Below are positions 1 through 11,654 of a DNA stretch of 24,509 nucleotides, piece by piece (the first letter of the stretch is position 1; each line of letters starts with the position of its first letter). The notes under the pieces were generated by a model. The model was not told the DNA's origin and ran no database searches. It saw only the letters and a program-made list of their open reading frames with translations. The stretch is from a virus, in the IMG/VR virus record IMGVR_UViG_3300009085_000084, positions 1 to 24,509 of that record, one strand, 5' to 3'. The translations under genes and the position numbers were made by a program.

Positions 1-188
1 ACCTTCGGTATCCCTTTAGAGTATTATATAAGAACTTAGATCCTTTTCTCAACGGGGACAAACCTAGTCTACTATGAATTATGAATCTTGTCAAGTACTT
101 ATGTGCCAGTTCATAAAGTGGCACCAGACCTCATCAGACTCGATAAGATTCCTGTCATACTGAACTCGTTCAACACCAAGAACCACTC
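1..188. other. Left-edge intergenic stretch with no clear gene
   Basis: No start-to-stop gene is visible. One forward frame is open from the window edge to a stop at 75-77 (about 24 codons). It could be the tail of a gene lying to the left, but nothing in it is recognisable. The stretch ends in a family A regulatory cassette (116-161). At 102-124 there is a small inverted repeat, GTGCCA with TGGCAC, whose right arm contains the AAGTGGCAC box shared by most family A cassettes. Confidence 0.5.
116..161 (+). promoter_or_regulatory. Family A promoter cassette for the gene at 189
   Basis: AAGTGGCAC lies at 116-124 and a -10-like CATACT at 156-161, exactly 40 bp from box start to hexamer start. 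The hairpin seen between them in other copies is weak here. No good -35 is present. The first start codon downstream is at 189. Promoter activity is inferred from sequence and from repetition of the arrangement. Confidence 0.5.
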
Positions 189-371
189 ATGAGCATTTAC
201 ACCAACAACGGATACGCAAATCGTAAAGAGTATTTGAATGAACTTCGTGAAGAGTACGGAGATCTTGTAGACATTCTTACCAGTGTGCTACCATCGTCTG
301 AAGATTTCGATGGTCTTGTAACCGCCCTAGAAGACGCTGTAGAGTCTGGAGAGTACGAAGACCTCCTGTGA
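189..371 (+). CDS. Small acidic phage protein of unknown function (60 aa)
   Basis: A 60-residue acidic protein beginning MSIYTNNGYANRKEYL. It has no signal peptide or membrane segment. The body is mostly helix-forming, with an acidic C-terminal half (EDFDGLVTALEDAVESGEYED). From general familiarity, proteins of this NNGY..RKEYL / EDFDGL type are common in cyanophages without an assigned role; this was not checked by search. The ATG is the first start after a family A cassette and has no strong Shine-Dalgarno, like its neighbours. Its stop TGA overlaps a TGTGACAC sequence similar to the start of the next cassette. It is followed 79 bases later by another small gene on the same strand and is probably expressed early. 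Confidence 0.8.
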   Translation: MSIYTNNGYANRKEYLNELREEYGDLVDILTSVLPSSEDFDGLVTALEDAVESGEYEDLL

Positions 372-391
372 CACTTTAAGCACTGTTCCAA

Positions 392-425
392 GGGCACACA
401 GGAGTCTCTCAGAGTGCCCTATACT
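392..425 (+). promoter_or_regulatory. Family A hairpin and -10 for the gene at 451
   Basis: The hairpin arms are GGGCAC (392-397) and GTGCCC (414-419). TATACT (420-425) follows the right arm directly, and then AAACAAGTCA, a leader shared with the cassettes at 2605, 3357, 5004 and 5815. The AAGTGGCAC box expected near 380 is degenerate. The hairpin could terminate the upstream transcript while the adjacent -10 starts the next one. Confidence 0.6.
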
Positions 426-450
426 AAACAAGTCAACCCAACCAAACATC

Positions 451-915
451 ATGGGAACCCGCTCACGCATCGGAATCGAAATGCCAGATCACACTGTGGT
501 TAGTGTCTACTGCCATTGGGATGGTTATGTAGAGGGCAATGGCAAAATCTTGGTAGAGCACTATCAGAACCGTGAAGACGTACAAGAACTTATTGATGGT
601 GGTTCGATGTCATCACTGAGAACTCGTGGCACTTGGAATCATGATACCGCTCTTCGTGATGAGAATGGAGAGTATATTAATGATGCTGCCGGTTATCTAA
701 TGTATGAGAATGATCGTGAACCACAACCACTTTATCACTCAGAGCGTGGTGATGGTGAAGATCCTATGCACTCCGATTTTGATACCTTTGTTGCAGGTAA
801 CTCTATGGAAGAGTATGCTTACCTGTATGATCTCAATGGTAACTGGAAAGCATATGAGATTAACTATAATGCACCAGTGGAACGTGTTGAGATTCCAAAC
901 TATGCAGTAACATAA
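451..915 (+). CDS. Conserved phage protein, MGTRSRIGI type, unknown function (154 aa)
   Basis: A 154-residue acidic protein starting MGTRSRIGIEMPDHTVVSVY, then CHWDGYVEGNGKILVEHY. The N-terminal pattern MGTRSRI...D..V.S.YCHWDGY.EG.G..L..HY belongs to a widespread phage/plasmid hypothetical family as I know it; no enzymatic role is established to my knowledge. The middle is rich in D, E, N and G, and the tail in aromatic residues. No membrane segment is present. The start is the first ATG after the -10/AAACAAGTCA leader. The last 56 bases (860-915) overlap the 3' end of a convergent HNH endonuclease gene on the minus strand, which suggests that gene inserted immediately behind this one. Confidence 0.88.
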   Translation: MGTRSRIGIEMPDHTVVSVYCHWDGYVEGNGKILVEHYQNREDVQELIDGGSMSSLRTRGTWNHDTALRDENGEYINDAAGYLMYENDREPQPLYHSERGDGEDPMHSDFDTFVAGNSMEEYAYLYDLNGNWKAYEINYNAPVERVEIPNYAVT

Positions 916-1372
916 ACCCCCTACATTTTCCTGTTTTTCTTAATTGACTCGGATAAAGATTATTCTCTAAACAAAACTTATTTAAATTGAAAACATCTAC
1001 AGATTCGCCCGTAGGGGTTTTTATTTTATACCATTTAGAAAGAGAATATTCGGAATTATATTGATGATTACACCATTCCAAATTACTCACATGATTGTTA
1101 GTTTTATCTTCATCTTTATGATTAACTTGTGGTAGATTGTTTGGATTGGGAATATAAGTTTCTGCAACTAATCTATGAACATACTTATACTTAGGTTTTT
1201 TCGGTGATGCATTTTCATACTTATGAATTCTGATTACACTATATCCTCTCCATTTACCTGTTTGTTGTCTAAGTTCTCTTTCTGTTTTATAAGAACCGTA
1301 TCTTGTCCAAGTTGTAAAAACTTTGCCATCTTCTGTGACAAAGTAACCCTTAAGGGTAGGATGCTCTTTCAT
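860..1372 (-). CDS. HNH homing endonuclease (170 aa)
   Basis: The N-terminus (residues 8-30, LKGYFVTEDGKVFTTWTRYG) matches the NUMOD4-like lead-in of phage HNH enzymes. The HNH core runs from about residue 62 to 105: H66 in YVHRLVAETYIPNP, N84-H85 in QVNHKDEDKTNN, then N97-L98-W100. Residues 115-158 form a C-terminal DNA-binding-like segment with NLNKFCLENNL. Such enzymes nick or cut DNA to drive their own spread. It is encoded against all its neighbours, convergent with the gene at 451-915, and overlaps that gene by 56 bases. The start at 1372 lies about 25 bases below a minus-strand TATAAATA, so late expression is likely. The sequence is more AT-rich than its neighbours, consistent with acquisition. 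Confidence 0.88.
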   Translation of the reverse strand: MKEHPTLKGYFVTEDGKVFTTWTRYGSYKTERELRQQTGKWRGYSVIRIHKYENASPKKPKYKYVHRLVAETYIPNPNNLPQVNHKDEDKTNNHVSNLEWCNHQYNSEYSLSKWYKIKTPTGESVDVFNLNKFCLENNLYPSQLRKTGKCRGFMLLHSLESQHVPLVHYS

Positions 1373-1381
1373 CTGCTTCTA

Positions 1382-1454
1382 AATTAGGTGACATATTATT
1401 TATACAAGAAAAGAGGCATTTCTGCCCCCTTTCTACCCTATAGTGTCACCTAAT
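1382..1454. repeat. 12-bp inverted repeat flanking a minus-strand late promoter
   Basis: AATTAGGTGACA at 1382-1393 is mirrored exactly by TGTCACCTAATT at 1443-1454. Between the arms are a minus-strand TATAAATA and a small hairpin (GGCA...TGCC, near 1413-1424). The arms sit just upstream of the HNH gene. They may be a terminator-like structure, or the border of an inserted segment. Confidence 0.7.
1397..1404 (-). promoter_or_regulatory. T4-type late promoter for the minus-strand HNH gene
   Basis: Read on the minus strand this is TATAAATA, the T4-type late promoter element. It sits 25 bases upstream of the HNH start codon at 1372, a normal distance for a late -10 element. Confidence 0.65.
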
Positions 1455-1465
1455 TAGAGCACCAT

Positions 1466-1473
1466 TATTTATA
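1466..1473 (-). promoter_or_regulatory. Second minus-strand TATAAATA late promoter
   Basis: A second exact TATAAATA on the minus strand, 69 bp above the first and inside the same short context (ATTATTTATAC on the plus strand in both). It may be a duplicated late promoter for the HNH gene. Confidence 0.5.
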
Positions 1474-1477
1474 CTGT

Positions 1478-1500
1478 ACCACTTGATGAACTGGTACAAG
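1478..1500. repeat. Palindrome GTACCACTTG...CTGGTAC
   Basis: A near-perfect palindrome, GTACCACTTGATGAACTGGTAC. It is the inverted form of the sequences at 102-124 and 1589-1609 (GCCAGTTCAT then AAGTGGCAC). The three copies suggest a protein-binding site whose half-site AAGTGGCAC is retained in all family A cassettes. Confidence 0.6.
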
Positions 1501-1600
1501 GAGTCTGGATTCCCTTCAGATCTCTGCTACATTACATTTGTTCCTGAGATTCTTATGTACCGCACACTTTCTGAACACTGTTTCTGTATGCCAGTTCATC

Positions 1601-1648
1601 AAGTGGCACAATGGGGGTCTTGACATCTGATCAAGACCCTCCTATAAT
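1601..1648 (+). promoter_or_regulatory. Family A cassette with consensus -35/-10 promoter
   Basis: AAGTGGCAC at 1601-1609 is followed by TTGACA (1620-1625), exactly 17 bp, and TATAAT (1643-1648): a full match to the bacterial housekeeping sigma consensus. A perfect 9-bp stem, GGGTCTTGA (1615-1623) with TCAAGACCC (1631-1639), overlaps the -35 and the spacer. A hairpin or inverted-repeat operator is therefore built into the promoter. It drives the gene at 1750 through a leader of about 100 bases. Confidence 0.85.
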
Positions 1649-1749
1649 TCTATACATGGGGTGAATGGTTATAAAGAGTTCGATTCTCTTTCTCCTCCTG
1701 GTACATAAAGTACCTAATATTACATATCTTAATTCAATCAAACAACATC

Positions 1750-1971
1750 ATGCGTAACTTTAATGTCAATAGTACTGCCATCTCAACTCTGAGTATGGAA
1801 GGTGAACAAGTGAACATTCAATTCACAAGTACCGATAAGCAGTACACTTTCCGTGCTTCTGATCCTAGCACCTTTGTTGCAGATCTAGAGCAAGTGATTG
1901 CTGATCCTACAGGTTCTGTGGGTTCTTACATTCACCGTGCTCGTACTAGTGAACTTCTTGTTGAAGTCTGA
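1750..1971 (+). CDS. KTSC-domain-like small protein (73 aa)
   Basis: A 73-residue protein starting MRNFNVNSTAISTLSMEGE. The pattern V.STAI..L, then V.I.F.S....YTFRA, then a helix ending in SVGSYIHRA resembles the small KTSC fold (a start like VNSTAI, a Y-F strand and a late S-G-Y motif). This is a tentative family call and no biochemical role is firmly known to me. No membrane segment is present. The start is the first ATG after a strong promoter and long leader, with little Shine-Dalgarno. Its last codons (GTC TGA) are part of the next family A cassette, a feature shared with three other genes in this region. Confidence 0.75.
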   Translation: MRNFNVNSTAISTLSMEGEQVNIQFTSTDKQYTFRASDPSTFVADLEQVIADPTGSVGSYIHRARTSELLVEV

Positions 1972-1972
1972 T

Positions 1973-2016
1973 AAGTGACACCTAGGGGTCTTGTGTTCTC
2001 ATAAGATCCCTATAAT
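1973..2016 (+). promoter_or_regulatory. Family A cassette reading into the TTGGTTACC array
   Basis: AAGTGACAC is at 1973-1981, the hairpin is GGGGTCTT (1985-1992) with AAGATCCC (2003-2010), and TATAAT follows at once at 2011-2016. Box-to-hexamer distance is 38 bp. A transcript started here would run through the repeat array at 2031-2301 before reaching the gene at 2316. Confidence 0.65.
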
Positions 2017-2030
2017 ACTTAAGAATCTTA

Positions 2031-2301
2031 TTGGTTACCAATAAATCTTAAAATAATATGATTTATATTGGTTACCAGTTCTAAACAATTGGTTACCAAT
2101 AAATCTTAAAATCTTATACTAATACCATTTATATTGGTTACCAATTGTTTTTTATTGGTTACTAATAAATTCACAAGATGGTAGATTATACTAATATGAT
2201 TTATATTGGTTACCAATTGTTTTTTATTGGTTACCAATAAATCTTAAAATCTTATACTAATATGATTTATATTGGTTACCAGTTCTAAATAATTGGTTAC
2301 T
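2031..2301. repeat. Array of nine TTGGTTACY palindromic sites with 21-bp phasing
   Basis: TTGGTTACC or TTGGTTACT starts at 2031, 2068, 2089, 2134, 2155, 2206, 2227, 2272 and 2293. Most copies sit within the palindrome ATTGGTTACCAAT or a close variant. The distances alternate 37, 21, 45, 21, 51, 21, 45, 21, so the sites form pairs exactly two helical turns apart. The longer linkers are AT-rich and repeat AAATCTTAAAAT and ATATGATTTATA. It looks like a cooperative protein-binding array (operator, origin or partition-like) and not coding sequence. Confidence 0.85.
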
Positions 2302-2315
2302 AATAAATTCATAAG

Positions 2316-2612
2316 ATGGTAGATTATACTAAATCAATTAAAGGGCAAAGAGGATTCTCTAAGATGTATCAGATCTTAGGTGATTGTAAAACCATGAGAG
2401 TTCCCTTAACTGTTTATGATAAGATTAAATGTATCTTATCATTATTTGAAGAGATTCAAGATTTAGATAAGGTTCATACGATATTAGATAAAAATATTAT
2501 TGGATTAGAAAATCTTGTAAAGAATCGTATTGAATCTGAAGAGGATGAATGTGACAGTCTGACAACTGGCACAGACAGGCACCTAGGAGACCCTAGAGTG
2601 CCCTTATACTAA
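2316..2612 (+). CDS. Hypothetical protein reading through a cassette (98 aa)
   Basis: A 98-residue protein of unknown function. Residues 17-75 are a plausible helical domain (MYQILGDCKTMRVPLTVYDK, then an acidic helix with EEIQDLDKVHTILDK). The first ten or so codons lie inside the last unit of the TTGGTTACY array, and the same bases occur earlier in the array near 2170-2195. A start at the ATG at 2364 is therefore possible and has a better Shine-Dalgarno (AGAGGA at 2349-2354). The C-terminus is odd: after ESEEDE the frame crosses a whole family A cassette out of the usual frame, adding about 21 residues and ending in the -10 hexamer. This suggests a small frameshift near 2545 or a recent cassette insertion. 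Confidence 0.6.
   Translation: MVDYTKSIKGQRGFSKMYQILGDCKTMRVPLTVYDKIKCILSLFEEIQDLDKVHTILDKNIIGLENLVKNRIESEEDECDSLTTGTDRHLGDPRVPLY
2564..2610 (+). promoter_or_regulatory. Family A cassette for the gene at 2637
   Basis: AACTGGCAC is at 2564-2572, the hairpin is GGCAC (2578-2582) with GTGCC (2598-2602), and TATACT is at 2605-2610, followed by AAACAAGTCA. Box-to-hexamer distance is 41 bp. The cassette lies inside the 3' end of the preceding open frame. Confidence 0.65.
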
Positions 2613-2636
2613 ACAAGTCAACCAAACACCCCTGAC

Positions 2637-2771
2637 ATGGACTTTGACACCTTTGAAACCGATTTCTGGTCTGAGATTCAAGATGCTCCTGGTGAGATCT
2701 TTGACATTGATGAAATGATGGAAGATGAGCAGACCTGGAATGAGTTTGTAAACAGCAATGTGACAGTCTGA
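2637..2771 (+). CDS. Very small acidic protein (44 aa)
   Basis: A 44-residue, strongly acidic protein: MDFDTFETDFWSEIQDAPGE, then IFDIDEMMEDEQTWNEFVNS, ending NVTV. About a third of its residues are D or E, giving a DNA-mimic-like charge, but no family is recognised. The start is the first ATG after the AAACAAGTCA leader. Its last four codons, GTG ACA GTC TGA, are the beginning of the next family A cassette, the same ending used at 3315 and nearly so at 5773. Confidence 0.75.
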   Translation: MDFDTFETDFWSEIQDAPGEIFDIDEMMEDEQTWNEFVNSNVTV

Positions 2772-2772
2772 T

Positions 2773-2818
2773 AAGTGGCACACGGGGTCTTGTGTTCTCA
2801 TGAGATCCCTGCCATACT
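2773..2818 (+). promoter_or_regulatory. Family A cassette for the gene at 2848
   Basis: AAGTGGCAC is at 2773-2781, the 7-bp hairpin is GGGGTCT (2784-2790) with AGATCCC (2803-2809, one G-T pair), and CATACT is at 2813-2818. Box-to-hexamer distance is 40 bp. The ATG at 2800 lies inside this cassette and is not used as the start of the next gene. Confidence 0.65.
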
Positions 2819-2847
2819 ACATTTGTTCAACCAATCACACCAATCTC

Positions 2848-3315
2848 ATGGGTTATAACGTTTTCATTGAAGAAAGCACTTTTCAGATTCCTGCTGAAAA
2901 TCTTGATGAAGCATACAACCGTATGTGTCAACTGAACTTTACTGTTCCCAACAAACATAAGAATGGAGGTTCTTATCCTGATAAGGATAATGCACCCGAA
3001 TTTGGAGCAAATAAGTCATGTTGGTTCTCTTGGATGGAATGGAACTATCATGAAGAGTGTAATAATTCCGAAGAGATTCTGCAACAATTAGGTTTCTATA
3101 CTTCAACTGATGAAGATGGAAATCTTCATATTGATGGTTATGATTCCAAGACTGGTCAGGAGAATCTCTTTTTGGAGGCAATCTCTACACTTTCCAAAGG
3201 TTACATTATATGGGAAGGTGAAGATGATGAAGTCTGGGGAGAAACTTATGGTGGTGAGGAAGTCATTGTAAAGAGACAAGGTGCTCCAGATTACAGTCAC
3301 CTTGTGACAGTCTGA
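2848..3315 (+). CDS. Conserved hypothetical protein, WFSWMEWNY motif (155 aa)
   Basis: A 155-residue acidic soluble protein, MGYNVFIEESTFQIPAENLD at the N-terminus. It has a mid-section with SCWFSWMEWNYHEEC (about residues 55-70) and a C-terminal part with GYDSKTGQE and GYIIWEGEDDEVWGE. The layout of two strands, a WFSWM core and a G.E..F.. stretch resembles small proteins of phages and bacteria with no known function. No catalytic motif or membrane segment is seen. The ATG at 2848 is chosen over an in-frame ATG at 2800 because the latter sits between the hairpin and the -10 of the promoter. It ends in the cassette-encoded VTV. Confidence 0.82.
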   Translation: MGYNVFIEESTFQIPAENLDEAYNRMCQLNFTVPNKHKNGGSYPDKDNAPEFGANKSCWFSWMEWNYHEECNNSEEILQQLGFYTSTDEDGNLHIDGYDSKTGQENLFLEAISTLSKGYIIWEGEDDEVWGETYGGEEVIVKRQGAPDYSHLVTV

Positions 3316-3316
3316 T

Positions 3317-3362
3317 AAGTGGCACATAAGGCACCTAGAACACCCTAGAGTGCCTCTATAAT
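3317..3362 (+). promoter_or_regulatory. Family A cassette for the three-gene set at 3387-3846
   Basis: AAGTGGCAC is at 3317-3325, the hairpin is AGGCAC (3329-3334) with GTGCCT (3350-3355), and TATAAT is at 3357-3362, followed by AAACAAGTCA. Box-to-hexamer distance is 40 bp. It precedes three genes joined by ATGA overlaps. Confidence 0.7.
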
Positions 3363-3386
3363 AAACAAGTCAATCACCAACACCTC

Positions 3387-3548
3387 ATGAACGACACAGC
3401 AGACCAGATCAAAGATTTCTTTACATCTGAAGAATGGGATATGATATACGATCTTGTTGGTCGTCATGGTCTGGATGATGATGATGAAAACTCTGAAACT
3501 GTTTATGACATTCGTAACAAAATTCACACTATCTTTGACGAAGAATGA
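3387..3548 (+). CDS. Small acidic protein (53 aa), first of an overlapping trio
   Basis: A 53-residue acidic protein, MNDTADQIKDFFTSEEWDMI at the N-terminus, then HGLDDDDENSETVYDIRNK and a final helix ending in FDEE. It is predicted to be mostly helical and soluble, with no recognised family. It is the first gene after a family A promoter. Its stop overlaps the next start (ATGA at 3545), so the trio 3387-3846 is probably one translationally coupled operon. The coupling makes each of these very short genes more credible than length alone would. Confidence 0.75.
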   Translation: MNDTADQIKDFFTSEEWDMIYDLVGRHGLDDDDENSETVYDIRNKIHTIFDEE

Positions 3549-3670
3549 TTGACACTTACAATTTCACTGGAGATGGTACAACAATTTTAGGACTGGTTGG
3601 CATCATCTCCACTGGTATCATTATTGTTACTGCATTCACCCGTTATTTTAATTCTCCTCTAAGGAAATGA
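3545..3670 (+). CDS. Small single-pass membrane protein (41 aa)
   Basis: A 41-residue protein: a short polar N-terminus (MIDTYNFTGDGTT), one hydrophobic span of about 19 residues (ILGLVGIISTGIIIVTAF) and a basic tail (TRYFNSPLRK). The positive C-terminus suggests an N-out, C-in orientation. It overlaps its neighbours by four bases at both ends (ATGA at 3545 and 3667). It could be an inner-membrane effector of host takeover, but no family is recognised and this role is inference from the membrane segment and early-region position. Confidence 0.75.
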   Translation: MIDTYNFTGDGTTILGLVGIISTGIIIVTAFTRYFNSPLRK

Positions 3671-3846
3671 CTTACAAAGAACTTCTTGCCGAACTTCAAA
3701 AACTCAACGAAGAACAACTCAATCAGGATGTTTGTATTTGGGATTGTTGGGGGCAAGATGAGTATTACCAAAAAGGTGTAGAGTTTGTATTTGCAACTGA
3801 TGCACAAGATGTTCTAGATGTAGACCACCCTATCATTCAATACTGA
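3667..3846 (+). CDS. Small hypothetical protein (59 aa), last of the trio
   Basis: A 59-residue acidic protein beginning MTYKELLAELQKLNEEQLNQ, a helix common at the start of phage and bacterial small proteins. It continues DVCIWDCWGQDEYYQKGVEF and ends with ATDAQDVLDVDHPII. The second half looks like a few strands. It holds two cysteines and three tryptophan/tyrosine clusters but no clear metal site. No function is known. Translation is coupled to the membrane-protein gene by an ATGA overlap. Confidence 0.78.
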   Translation: MTYKELLAELQKLNEEQLNQDVCIWDCWGQDEYYQKGVEFVFATDAQDVLDVDHPIIQY

Positions 3847-3852
3847 TAAAAA

Positions 3853-3939
3853 TCTAGTCGAGACTACAATCTCGTCGAGATGTGACAGTCACACGCACAC
3901 AATCTCGACGAGACACACACATATTCACACATCGAGATT
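3853..3939 (+). promoter_or_regulatory. Family B operator leader: ATCTCGWCGAGAT palindromes
   Basis: The palindrome ATCTCGTCGAGAT is at 3869-3881, a second copy ATCTCGACGAGAC at 3903-3914, a degenerate copy TCTAGTCGAGAC near 3853-3864, and a half-site ATCGAGATT (3931-3939) touches the ATG at 3940. The same arrangement precedes the gene at 7260. It is probably a repressor or activator site, or an RNA structure, shared by the two genes. Confidence 0.65.
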
Positions 3940-4128
3940 ATGAATAACGCAATCGTCACACCAATCTCGCGTAAGGCAAAGAATCGCTTTGCCAACCTTA
4001 TGTGCAATGACGGGCAATGTATTATAGAGCAACACAAGGGTAATCGAGTGTTTCTCACGTCTGAGAATGGTAAGAATCACTTTTGGGTGATGCTTGACAA
4101 AGACCCGGACTGGATGGTAGAATTGTAA
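3940..4128 (+). CDS. Small basic hypothetical protein (62 aa)
   Basis: A 62-residue protein beginning MNNAIVTPISRKAKNRFANL, with a basic N-terminal half, then MCNDGQCIIEQHKGNRVFL and FWVMLDKDPDWMVEL. It looks like a compact strand-rich fold. I know of similar small proteins in cyanobacteria and their phages but no function. The start codon directly follows a family B half-site. This gene and the one at 7260 are the only two in the window with this leader, so they are probably co-regulated. Confidence 0.78.
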   Translation: MNNAIVTPISRKAKNRFANLMCNDGQCIIEQHKGNRVFLTSENGKNHFWVMLDKDPDWMVEL

Positions 4129-4225
4129 GATACAGACGGAAGGGGTTTTGCCGTCGCTGAATGTTAAAGTCACCCTGCGCGTAAGAAAACAGATACTGAT
4201 TATAGCATAGGTGAGTGTATGATGT

Positions 4226-4486: not shown

Positions 4487-4954
4487 ATGACTACCATCCA
4501 ACTTGTTATCAACGGCAACCAAGTTGAAGGCACAATGTTAGAACTTGCTCAAATGTTGGGCATGATTTCTAACACTCCTACACAACCAGTTGCTCCGGTT
4601 GTTAACAATGAACCGGCAGAATTGGCACCATTCAATGCCTTTTTGATGGTAGAATTGACACCCTACTTTGGTGCTGAAAACGCAACTAAGATTGTCACTA
4701 AGTTACAACGTTCCCGTGCAATCAATGATTTTCGGTATTTCATTTCAATGTACCGATTGGCAAAAGGTGATCTACAAAAGCGTCAACTTCTGAAGGTTGT
4801 AAGTGCAGTCTACCGCTACAAGTTTGGTGGTTATAAGAATCCTGAGCAGTACTCTTTGCGTTCTGAAATTAAGTATGCAAAAGCGTGTGATCATTGCGGC
4901 AAACTTGCACAAGTTCTAGTTGCTCGTTTGACTGCTGAGAAACTCTGGAAGTGA
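4487..4954 (+). CDS. Hypothetical protein with C-terminal CxxC (155 aa)
   Basis: A 155-residue protein. The N-terminus is a strand pair (MTTIQLVINGNQVEGTMLEL), followed by a proline/asparagine linker (residues 30-47) and a helical domain of about 100 residues ending in a CDHCGK (CxxC) motif near residue 134. A single CxxC is not enough to call a zinc finger. The start at 4487 follows CCACCACTCCATACCG, matching the CACC..CCG leader of the genes at 6380, 6530 and 6747. In-frame upstream codons lie in the family C leader and read as low-complexity sequence. The stop (TGA) falls in the GTGACA of the next family A cassette. Confidence 0.75.
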   Translation: MTTIQLVINGNQVEGTMLELAQMLGMISNTPTQPVAPVVNNEPAELAPFNAFLMVELTPYFGAENATKIVTKLQRSRAINDFRYFISMYRLAKGDLQKRQLLKVVSAVYRYKFGGYKNPEQYSLRSEIKYAKACDHCGKLAQVLVARLTAEKLWK

Positions 4955-7400: not shown

Positions 7401-7410
7401 ACAATCAAAT

Positions 7411-7502
7411 AAGATTAGAAGATATAAAGAATATACAATAGATTAAGATTAGAAGATATAAAGAATATACAATAGATTAAGATTAGAAGATATAAAGAAT
7501 AG
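7411..7502. repeat. 34-bp tandem repeat, nearly three copies
   Basis: Two identical 34-bp units start at 7411 and 7445, and a third diverges after about 24 bases from 7479. Each begins AAGATTAGAAGATATAAAGA. The unit is AT-rich and noncoding, directly behind the gene at 7260. Confidence 0.9.
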
Positions 7503-7510
7503 AGAATTAC

Positions 7511-7575
7511 ACAGGATTGAATGTAACTTAATGGTCGTGGTGTGGTTTATTGCTTACATTCAGTCCTGTCTAATT
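7511..7575 (+). terminator. Long stem-loop followed by T-run
   Basis: ACAGGATTGAATGTAA (7511-7526) pairs with TTACATTCAGTCCTGT (7554-7569): 16 pairs with one G-T, and a 27-base loop. A T-rich run follows from about 7573. It could be a terminator, but the stem is unusually long and the loop large, so a structured small RNA or replication element is also possible. Confidence 0.6.
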
Positions 7576-7634
7576 TTTTATACTTTTGGAGTTTGTTATT
7601 TTTTATACTTTTGGAGTTTGTTATTCTTTATACT
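7573..7634. repeat. 25-bp repeat carrying TATACT boxes
   Basis: TATACT occurs at 7579, 7604 and 7629, exactly 25 bp apart. The first two are followed by the identical TTTGGAGTTTGTTATT. TATACT is the same box that flanks family D hairpins, so this may be a tandem promoter array. Confidence 0.75.
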
Positions 7635-7984
7635 TAGTGGGGTCTGAGTTGTTTATGCTAACTGCTGCTGCTGGTTAGGTGTTGCTACCGCTGCTGCTGA
7701 GATTCCAACCATACCGACCGCCCATCCGTCAAGGTTTGACCGATCAGCGTTGCTAATCAGACGAGTTTGGTATTTTGTATCCGTTGATACCGTTTAGGGG
7801 TTGTGGGATCGGGGCGGACCTGATACAGTTACCTTGAACCTAGAAAAACGAAGAACGGCATCGGGGCGGAGCGCGGGAGCGTTTCGCGGGTCAGGTCGCG
7901 CGGGTTCACTGGTCACCCGTTGCCGTTTTCTATACTTTCTAAGTTTGCCTAAGTTACATTTTTGTCCTTTCAATTCTTTACACC

Positions 7985-9491: not shown

Positions 9492-10085
9492 ATGCCCCAA
9501 AAGATCACACAAGAAAAAATAACACAGATAATAGAACTTAGAGAATTTGGATGTACTTTTAATGATATTTGCAAAATAACAAAATCCTCAAAAAGAACAG
9601 TGCAAAGAATATGCAATTCAAATATCAAGAAACTTGAATATCAACCCATAAAAATTCCACCCAATATAAAAGAAACTCAATATTCTGGGTATTATGTTTC
9701 CGAAGATGGAAAGGTATGGACAGAGTTCAATAGGTATACCGGAAAAAAGGATATTTTAAGAGAAGTAAGTCAACATCCAAGAGGAGGAACAAACATAAAT
9801 GATAGGTATATGTCTGTCAATATCTCAATAAAAGATGAAAATGGAAAATTTATCAAACAGATCAAATATTATACACATCGCCTCATAGCAGAAACTTTAA
9901 TACCAAATCCAGAAGATTATGCTGAAGTGGATCATATTGATAGAAATAAAAAAAATAATTCTAAAAGTAATTTAAGATGGACGACAAGATTTGAAAATAT
10001 GAGTTCTTGGGAAAGGGATGATGAATACCGAAAAAAATTATCTGAAAACAATAGATGGACTCAAAATATAACCCTCCCTATATAA
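9492..10085 (+). CDS. HNH homing endonuclease with N-terminal HTH (197 aa)
   Basis: A 197-residue protein. Residues 5-43 look like a resolvase-type helix-turn-helix (KITQIIELREFG then FNDICKITKSSKRTVQRIC). Residues 64-80 are the NUMOD4-like YSGYYVSEDGKVWTEF. The HNH core has H129 in YTHRLIAETLIPNP, D147-H148 and D150 in VDHIDRNKKNN, and N160-L161-W163. The enzyme would cut or nick a target site, the HTH and tail giving specificity. Codon use is strongly A-rich. It opens the AT-rich half of the window and lies just ahead of a glycosyltransferase gene that has another HNH gene behind it, so the glycosyltransferase is flanked by homing genes. Confidence 0.9.
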   Translation: MPQKITQEKITQIIELREFGCTFNDICKITKSSKRTVQRICNSNIKKLEYQPIKIPPNIKETQYSGYYVSEDGKVWTEFNRYTGKKDILREVSQHPRGGTNINDRYMSVNISIKDENGKFIKQIKYYTHRLIAETLIPNPEDYAEVDHIDRNKKNNSKSNLRWTTRFENMSSWERDDEYRKKLSENNRWTQNITLPI

Positions 10086-10334: not shown

Positions 10335-11093
10335 ATGACTCGTGGTTTTACCGTAAAAGCATCTGCCCCAGTGGCAGCAAATAAAGAACCAGAATGGGAC
10401 TATAATCTAGCAAAAGAAATGATAAAAGGCAAATCAATTGTCTTTTGTCTTCCAGGAAGAGGAGTATCTTATACCTATCTAAAAAGTTTTGTTCAACTTT
10501 GTTTTGATATTGTTCAGTCCGGAGCAAGTATTCAAATCTCACAAGACTACTCATCCATGGTAAACTTTGCCAGATGCAAATGTCTAGGAGCAAATGTTCT
10601 CAGAGGTCCGAATCAACTTCCATGGGATGGAAAACTGAATTATGATTGGCAGCTTTGGATTGACTCTGATATTGTCTTTAACAGTGAAAAGTTCTGGCAA
10701 TTGGTTCTCATGGACAGAGACATTGCCTCAGGCTGGTATGCAACCGAAGATGGACATACAACCTCGGTGGCACACTGGATGGAAGAGGATGATTTCCGCA
10801 ATAATGGTGGAGTCATGAATCATGAGACCGTGGAGAGTATCTCTAAGCGTCGTAAACCATTTACAGTTGATTATGCCGGATTTGGCTGGTTACTCATTAA
10901 GAAAGGTGTCTTCGAGCACTCGGAGATGACATATCCCTGGTTTGCACCAAAGATGCAAGTCTTTGAATCCGGAGAAGTTCAGGATATGTGCGGAGAAGAT
11001 GTATCATTCTGTTTAGATGCAAAAGAAGCAGGATTTGAGATTTGGTGTGATCCTCGTATTCGAGTCGGCCATGAAAAAACTCGTATCCTGTAA
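10335..11093 (+). CDS. GT-A fold glycosyltransferase (252 aa)
   Basis: A 252-residue protein. After a short N-terminal extension (residues 1-35) comes the first strand GKSIVFCLPGRG. The metal/nucleotide-sugar motif DSD is at residues 110-112 (LWIDSDIVF). The acceptor-side acidic motif GED is at 220-222 (MCGEDVSFCLDAKEAGFEIW), followed by a C-terminal histidine in RVGHEK. This order is typical of GT-A, family 2-like enzymes that move a sugar from a nucleotide sugar. In phages they decorate DNA, capsid or host surface; which applies here cannot be told. It has its own promoter, and an HNH gene starts three bases after its stop. Confidence 0.85.
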   Translation: MTRGFTVKASAPVAANKEPEWDYNLAKEMIKGKSIVFCLPGRGVSYTYLKSFVQLCFDIVQSGASIQISQDYSSMVNFARCKCLGANVLRGPNQLPWDGKLNYDWQLWIDSDIVFNSEKFWQLVLMDRDIASGWYATEDGHTTSVAHWMEEDDFRNNGGVMNHETVESISKRRKPFTVDYAGFGWLLIKKGVFEHSEMTYPWFAPKMQVFESGEVQDMCGEDVSFCLDAKEAGFEIWCDPRIRVGHEKTRIL

Positions 11094-11096
11094 GTT

Positions 11097-11654
11097 ATGG
11101 AGTACGAAATAAAAGGATGGTCTGGATACTATCTTCATATTACTGAAAATGAAATTAATGTTTATAGTTCTTGGGGATTTGATAAAGGTAAACCTTCTAA
11201 AGGAGAATCTAGACCATCTATTATTATTGATAATAAGAGAAGAAAATTGTCTCAAAGAATTAGTCGCCATGGATATTTGAGAATAGATTTAAATAATGGG
11301 GAGAATGGAAAAAAACAATTATTTTTGCATCGCCTAATTGCAGAAACCATAATTCCCAATCCGAATAATCTCGAATGCATTGATCATATTGATGGAAATA
11401 AATTAAATAATAACCCATCAAATTTACAATGGATAACAAGAGGTGATAATGTAAGAAAAGCACAATCTATGGGAAAATGGGGCACTTATCCTAAAAAATA
11501 TGAAATTAAATTTGAATGTGGATCTAAAATTCAGATAGAAAACATGAGCAAATTTTCTAGAGAAAATAATTATGCTGCGACTAAATTAGTTGCAATATCT
11601 AAAGGTAGATTAAAAAAGCATAAAAATGTTATAGGAGTTTTAGAATTAACATGA
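11097..11654 (+). CDS. HNH homing endonuclease (185 aa)
   Basis: A 185-residue protein: lead-in IKGWSGYYLHITENEINVYS (NUMOD4-like, divergent), then an HNH core with H78 in FLHRLIAETIIPNP, D96-H97-D99 in CIDHIDGNKLNNN and N109-L110-W112. The C-terminal segment (residues 135-182) contains MSKFSRENNYAATKLVAISK, which parallels the C-terminus of the HNH enzyme at 860-1372. The core is close to that of the enzyme at 9492 (RLIAET.IPNP, DHID.NK.NN), so the two probably share a recent ancestor. It is wedged between the glycosyltransferase (3-base gap) and the next gene (4-base ATGA overlap), consistent with precise insertion. Confidence 0.9.
   Translation: MEYEIKGWSGYYLHITENEINVYSSWGFDKGKPSKGESRPSIIIDNKRRKLSQRISRHGYLRIDLNNGENGKKQLFLHRLIAETIIPNPNNLECIDHIDGNKLNNNPSNLQWITRGDNVRKAQSMGKWGTYPKKYEIKFECGSKIQIENMSKFSRENNYAATKLVAISKGRLKKHKNVIGVLELT

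Follow-up and report, generated by a model that had tools for sequence, protein, structure and literature searches.

Gene content and predicted promoters of the locus

The window, meaning the whole 24,509-nucleotide stretch that was analyzed, derives from a T4-like cyanophage, with the best matches, baseplate wedge genes among them, in Synechococcus phages S-SKS1 and S-SRM01. Gene 2316 (2316-2612, + strand) is an open reading frame of 98 amino acids proposed to encode a repressor of its own expression, and residues 1-66 correspond to the conserved domain of the family described below. Its upstream neighbor (1750-1971, +; 73 amino acids) served to locate the empty site in relatives, and its downstream neighbor (2637-2771, +; 44 amino acids) adjoins the upstream gene in 17 relatives. 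The last ~20 codons of gene 2316 cross a conserved intergenic hairpin (2549-2612); they have no counterpart in the orthologs and were left out of the family domain. Because the orthologs end at 67-75 amino acids, this C-terminal tail probably arose from recent loss of a stop codon.

A likely upstream promoter, predicted only from consensus, has its -10 element TATAAT at 2011-2016 (+), preceded by a hairpin at ~1983-2012 that recurs ahead of other small genes of the region. All nine of the repeated sites described below lie downstream of this best upstream -10. A possible tandem promoter of the form TTACCA-16-TATACT, likewise a consensus prediction only, begins inside a putative operator at 2093-2120 (+) and is found again at 2231-2258. 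Eight matches of this type were found, compared to 3.5 expected, and TATACT hexamers are present in the linkers between the site pairs.

Throughout positions 1-4200 of the window, a hairpin stands ahead of each small gene, directly followed by TATAAT or TATACT and an AAACAAGTCAACC-like leader. Examples are found at 1983-2020, 2549-2636, and 2760-2848, and the same module recurs in S-SRM01 and in many related loci. The module resembles a promoter/terminator cassette present in repeated copies.

Nine near-palindromic sites precede gene 2316

The leader of gene 2316 contains nine TTGGTTACY sites (2031-2301), all on the + strand, which are proposed to be operators on the basis of their positions and of their counterparts before orthologous genes. 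They start at 2031, 2068, 2089, 2134, 2155, 2206, 2227, 2272, and 2293, giving start-to-start spacings of 37, 21, 45, 21, 51, 21, 45, and 21 bp. The motif matched 10 times in the 24.5-kb window, compared to 0.56 matches expected, and none of 100 shuffled sequences reached 10; the tenth match (13653, - strand) is within coding sequence. The original prediction, made from the letters of this DNA, had reported nine such sites in pairs exactly 21 bp apart, and both the positions and the spacings proved exact and far above chance. It had also described many sites as palindromic, which agrees with the five sites that are palindromic at 12 of 13 positions, as ATTGGTTACCAAT, and the other four that are so at 10 of 13. 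The TTGGTTACCAA of the window sites has its core in common with the sites of the orthologs, GTTACC being the reverse complement of GGTAAC.

Scans of viral contigs with the exact pattern identified twelve loci with paired TTGGTTAC sites. Eleven of these were examined and rejected, since none had more than two or three sites and the contexts were unrelated, many of them apparently coding.

Tandem duplication within the array

Repeat comparison showed that much of the array consists of a 138-bp tandem duplication, with a first copy at 2048-2185 (+; site pairs A and B) and a second at 2186-2323 (+; pairs B' and A'). The copies are 87% identical, and each is composed of two sub-units of ~66/72 bp and contains two site pairs, so that the order of pairs along the array is A B B A. 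The second copy extends into the first codons of gene 2316 and stops there, and thus the duplicated unit includes the start of the gene. Because of this duplication, the second run of 21, 45, and 21 bp is a copy of the first, and the spacings are not independent observations. Within a pair, the 12-bp spacer reads AGTTCTAAAYAA for A but AATTGTTTTTTA for B, the two being identical at only 5 of 12 positions, and the differences between the 138-bp copies are concentrated in these spacers. As the A and B spacers differ in sequence yet are always 12 bp long, the 21-bp step has persisted despite the change of spacer sequence. That the A/B difference arose by inversion of the 12-bp spacer was only weakly supported (shuffle P 0.047). 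Since most spacings are divisible by three, peptides encoded by the array (for example 20 amino acids at 2178-2240) were also considered; they were rejected as a by-product of the duplication with early stops.

Co-occurrence of the gene and its sites in related phages

The two genes that flank gene 2316 are separated by only 60-76 bp in 17 related phage loci (L024-L026 and L028-L041, some of which are near-duplicates of each other), and the gap contains neither gene 2316 nor any GTTAAC, GGTAAC, or GTTACC site. Among the loci with these flanks, an insertion is common only to the window and L027, which has an ortholog of gene 2316 (53% protein identity) together with four sites. Orthologs in other surroundings were found in L047 and L048, again with four sites each. 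Relative to the ATG, the sites are GTTAAC at -74, -52, and -22 and GGTAAC at -8 in L027, GTTAAC or GGTAAC at -64, -42, -22, and -8 in L047, and GGTAAC at -60, -46, -27, and -13 in L048. In other words, each of these genes has four GKTAAC sites within 80 bp of its start codon, where 0.06-0.15 were expected. A TATAAT hexamer is located at -33 to -35, between the second and third sites, in all three. Within each ortholog contig the site motifs are nearly confined to the gene leader, which accounts for three of the three copies of TACGTTAAC in the L027 contig, three of the four in the L047 contig, and all four copies of GGTAACGCAT in the L048 contig. Gene 2316 and the array have been gained or lost together.

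The phage comparison amounts to effectively three independent leaders. Background for each leader was estimated by first-order Markov resampling of 100-bp leaders, a procedure which in the window counts only two GTTACC cores within 100 bp, and the per-leader P values are descriptive because the counted variants were chosen after the first leaders had been inspected. No homologs of the 2316 protein were found among phage records by tblastn or in genome contigs by pattern search.

Distant homologs on cyanobacterial plasmids

A tblastn search with the L027 protein matched a protein encoded on a Microcystis plasmid (E 0.6), which in turn led to a family of cyanobacterial plasmid proteins with the N-terminal signature KGGRG..APY.TTH.R.P.P.K..V. 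Comparison of phage and plasmid family profiles with hhalign gave a probability of 91 and an E value of 9e-7, while 30 column-shuffled controls reached at most 0.6%. When 2877 viral ORFs were searched with the plasmid HMM, the four phage proteins were the top four (E 0.004-0.1), the window member being the weakest of them (E 0.098), and the phage HMM in reverse placed plasmid members at top ranks. The phage-plasmid link is thus weak by BLAST and supported by profiles, and the gene 2316 family appears to be a previously undescribed one that is common to T4-like cyanophages and cyanobacterial plasmids.

Most of the plasmid genes are also preceded by such sites, usually clustered, with GTTAAC as the core. 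These are located at -79, -54, and -19 before ORF2 of the Synechocystis plasmid pCA2.4, at -80, -45, and -11 in Calothrix, at -69, -45, and -12 in Trichormus and Nostoc, and, in two Scytonema plasmids, at -78, -45, and -12 before MSDLIAK, the likely true start. A single GTTAAC is present at -17 in pCC5.2 and in Synechocystis B12. pCA2.4 encodes two family members in tandem, of 93 and 53 amino acids (L053:1857-2320), each with GTTAAC just before its ATG; the site of the second, 53-amino-acid ORF is at -11. The pCA2.4-ORF2 family as defined here combines the homologous N-terminal domain with a site cluster before the ATG, and both were found. Like gene 2316, pCA2.4 ORF2 and the small ORF that follows rep in pCC5.2 (4578-4859) have the N-terminal domain and a site just before the ATG, but their core is GTTAAC rather than GGTTACC, and there are three sites or one rather than nine. 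Previous studies of Synechocystis plasmids reported no similarity for ORF2 (PMC6066503) or no hits outside of Synechocystis (PMC10667661), and neither assigned it a function.

A GTTGACA sequence located 13 bp upstream of the core is common to pCA2.4, Calothrix, and Rivularia, which would place the operator-like core inside the spacer between the -35 and -10 elements. The promoters predicted here from consensus matches are TTGACA-17-TATAGT in Calothrix and TTGACA-17-TAGCAT in pCA2.4. The core at that spot in Rivularia is GTATAC, with the same flanks. The exact GTTAAC core was missing before the Microcystis and Oscillatoria homologs; GTCAAC-like variants were seen by eye in the Oscillatoria leader.

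The original prediction had attached particular weight to the 21-bp phasing as placing both sites of a pair on the same face of the helix. This emphasis fails across the relatives, in which the step is not conserved: spacings are 14/19/14, 22/30/14, and 22/20/14 in the phages and 24/33, 33/33, 35/34, and 25/35 in the plasmids.

Two further features of these plasmids were observed. The Microcystis-type gene (L069:1990-2069) is found beside CRISPR-like repeats, with ATCAGTT 7-mers near a TATAAT and no GTTAAC core. In Scytonema plasmid4, a second cluster (10752-11439; L076:1254-1950) has four TGTTAACAGGTTT sites around other genes, which are perhaps further targets.

Features of the protein family

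Neither phage nor plasmid members of the family matched any Pfam or NCBIfam model, PDB sequence searches with family members returned no match and no ribbon-helix-helix (RHH) chain, and matches in PHROGs were insignificant. The structural model of the L048 protein (pLDDT 72.6) has confident helices at residues 35-55 and 57-74 following a poorly modelled RVP stretch, and a Foldseek search with it gave nothing significant; the model of the L069 protein was poor (pLDDT 54). On the reading favored below, the gene 2316 product would probably be a dimeric DNA-binding regulator.

The locus may be compared with two types of known regulators. Like the CopG and Omega RHH regulators, the family includes small plasmid proteins with repeated sites at their own promoter and apparent control at the promoter level, and by sequence the repeated sites do overlap the predicted promoter of the gene itself. 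The family differs in that it has no sequence match to RHH proteins, and it is not assigned to that fold here. Furthermore, Omega recognizes contiguous 7-bp repeats and has a ParA partner, while the sites here are near-palindromes of 11-14 bp located 14-51 bp apart with no ParA partner seen. The resemblance to CopG/Omega would therefore be one of regulatory logic. Phage repressors of the lambda CI/Cro type bind near-palindromic operators present in multiple copies at the promoter of the regulator itself. The array is similar in having multiple near-palindromic operator-like sites at its own gene, and unlike that type in that there is no HTH match, the phage is a lytic T4-like one, and the sites are found only before the gene itself in the DNA examined.

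A proposed autoregulatory operator and its alternatives

We consider the array to be, with reasonable though far from complete confidence, an autoregulatory operator of gene 2316, because promoter-flanking near-palindromes occur only together with the gene and recur in diverged form before its distant homologs. The 2316 protein would bind, several copies at once, to the near-palindromes overlapping or flanking its own promoter, and the bound protein would lower transcription of its own gene; in this phage, tandem duplication would have enlarged the operator/promoter leader to nine sites. We infer each of three components of this model, namely that the gene's own product is the binding protein, that DNA rather than leader RNA is the target, and that the effect is repressive. 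The core of the sites differs by branch (GGTTACC, GTTAAC, GGTAAC, or GTATAC), which would fit operators that diverged along with their proteins but also weakens the motif link; the core common to all branches is short. Other observations that count against the model are the missing exact core before the Microcystis and Oscillatoria homologs, the location of every window site downstream of the best upstream -10, the small number of independent phage leaders, and the lack of database matches and of good structural models for the family.

Control at the level of RNA, in which two long hairpins (A with B and B' with A') or repeated protein-binding RNA motifs would govern how well the 2316 mRNA is translated or how stable it is, is unlikely, though it accounts for several observations. 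The window leader folds far better than shuffled sequences (z -8.2), complementarity between pairs A and B reaches 81% across 36 nt, folding is also seen for the leaders of L027 (z -2.7) and L047 (z -3.0), and the last site is 8-21 bp before the ATG. However, palindromic DNA sites produce RNA hairpins automatically, no Rfam match was above threshold, and in three plasmid homologs the site lies in the promoter spacer, upstream of the expected start of the transcript. The L048 leader has only direct copies of the site and no structure (z +0.72), so the hairpin is not the conserved feature, and secondary structure was not conserved across the window, L027, L047, and L048. Of the earlier suggestion of cooperative protein binding with control in the leader, binding sites with transcriptional control are thus backed by the comparative data, and translational control is possible. 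Purely neutral tandem duplication of an AT-rich leader, with no function, is already disfavoured and has little probability. The 138-bp duplication explains about half of the repeats, and to that extent the original view that the regularity goes beyond duplication was not supported. Site cores are kept where spacer sequences change, and sites cluster ahead of both orthologs and plasmid homologs even though the leaders of these genes are otherwise different (descriptive P ≤ 0.0012 for each leader with at least three sites), both of which argue against neutrality.

Two other roles named in the original prediction concern DNA maintenance. The RHH protein Omega of plasmid pSM19035 binds arrays of 7-bp repeats that overlap the promoter of its own gene and those of related genes and also serve as the centromere (PMC9499535). 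By analogy, an Omega- or ParB-type protein on the array could both control its own gene and segregate or tether DNA, and the homologs are indeed plasmid-borne, with genes for a ParA-like protein (annotated as cobyrinic acid a,c-diamide synthase) and a CopG-domain protein near the family homologs on a Scytonema plasmid. Such a partition role is conceivable but improbable: no ParA/ParM-like gene was seen beside the phage gene among the window ORFs or on pCA2.4, which encodes rep and two family ORFs, the spacings are irregular and the repeats not contiguous, and partition would be of no evident use to a lytic T4-like phage. A replication origin, with the sites as iterons bound by an initiator, is the least probable of these explanations, although the repeats do resemble iterons in AT-rich DNA ahead of a small gene and the homologs adjoin rep on pCA2.4 and pCC5.2. 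The 98-amino-acid product has no match to any Rep family and is not itself a Rep, rep is a separate gene on both plasmids with the site clusters before the small ORF instead, and phages that lack the array keep the same gene order.

The autoregulatory reading provides a concrete, testable function for a family of small ORFs with no described role, among them ORF2 of pCA2.4, which is a native plasmid employed in Synechocystis engineering, and the family links this plasmid to cyanophages. If the proteins do bind the arrays, cyanobacterial genetics would gain a ready-made collection of small regulators that differ in the sites they recognize, and possibly a means of controlling small plasmids. 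A more speculative and rather doubtful extension is that this is a new DNA-binding family whose operators diversify along with the protein, with phage copies acting in trans on any competing phage or resident plasmid with a similar operator, as a form of immunity or anti-plasmid activity.

Other features of the window

Tandem repeats were also found at 7410-7501 (34 bp, 2.7 copies, 100% identical) and 7573-7635 (25 bp, 2.5 copies), where there are no long ORFs. Three ORFs for HNH_3 endonucleases are encoded at 860-1372 (-), 9492-10085, and 11097-11654, one of them with a resolvase-type HTH.
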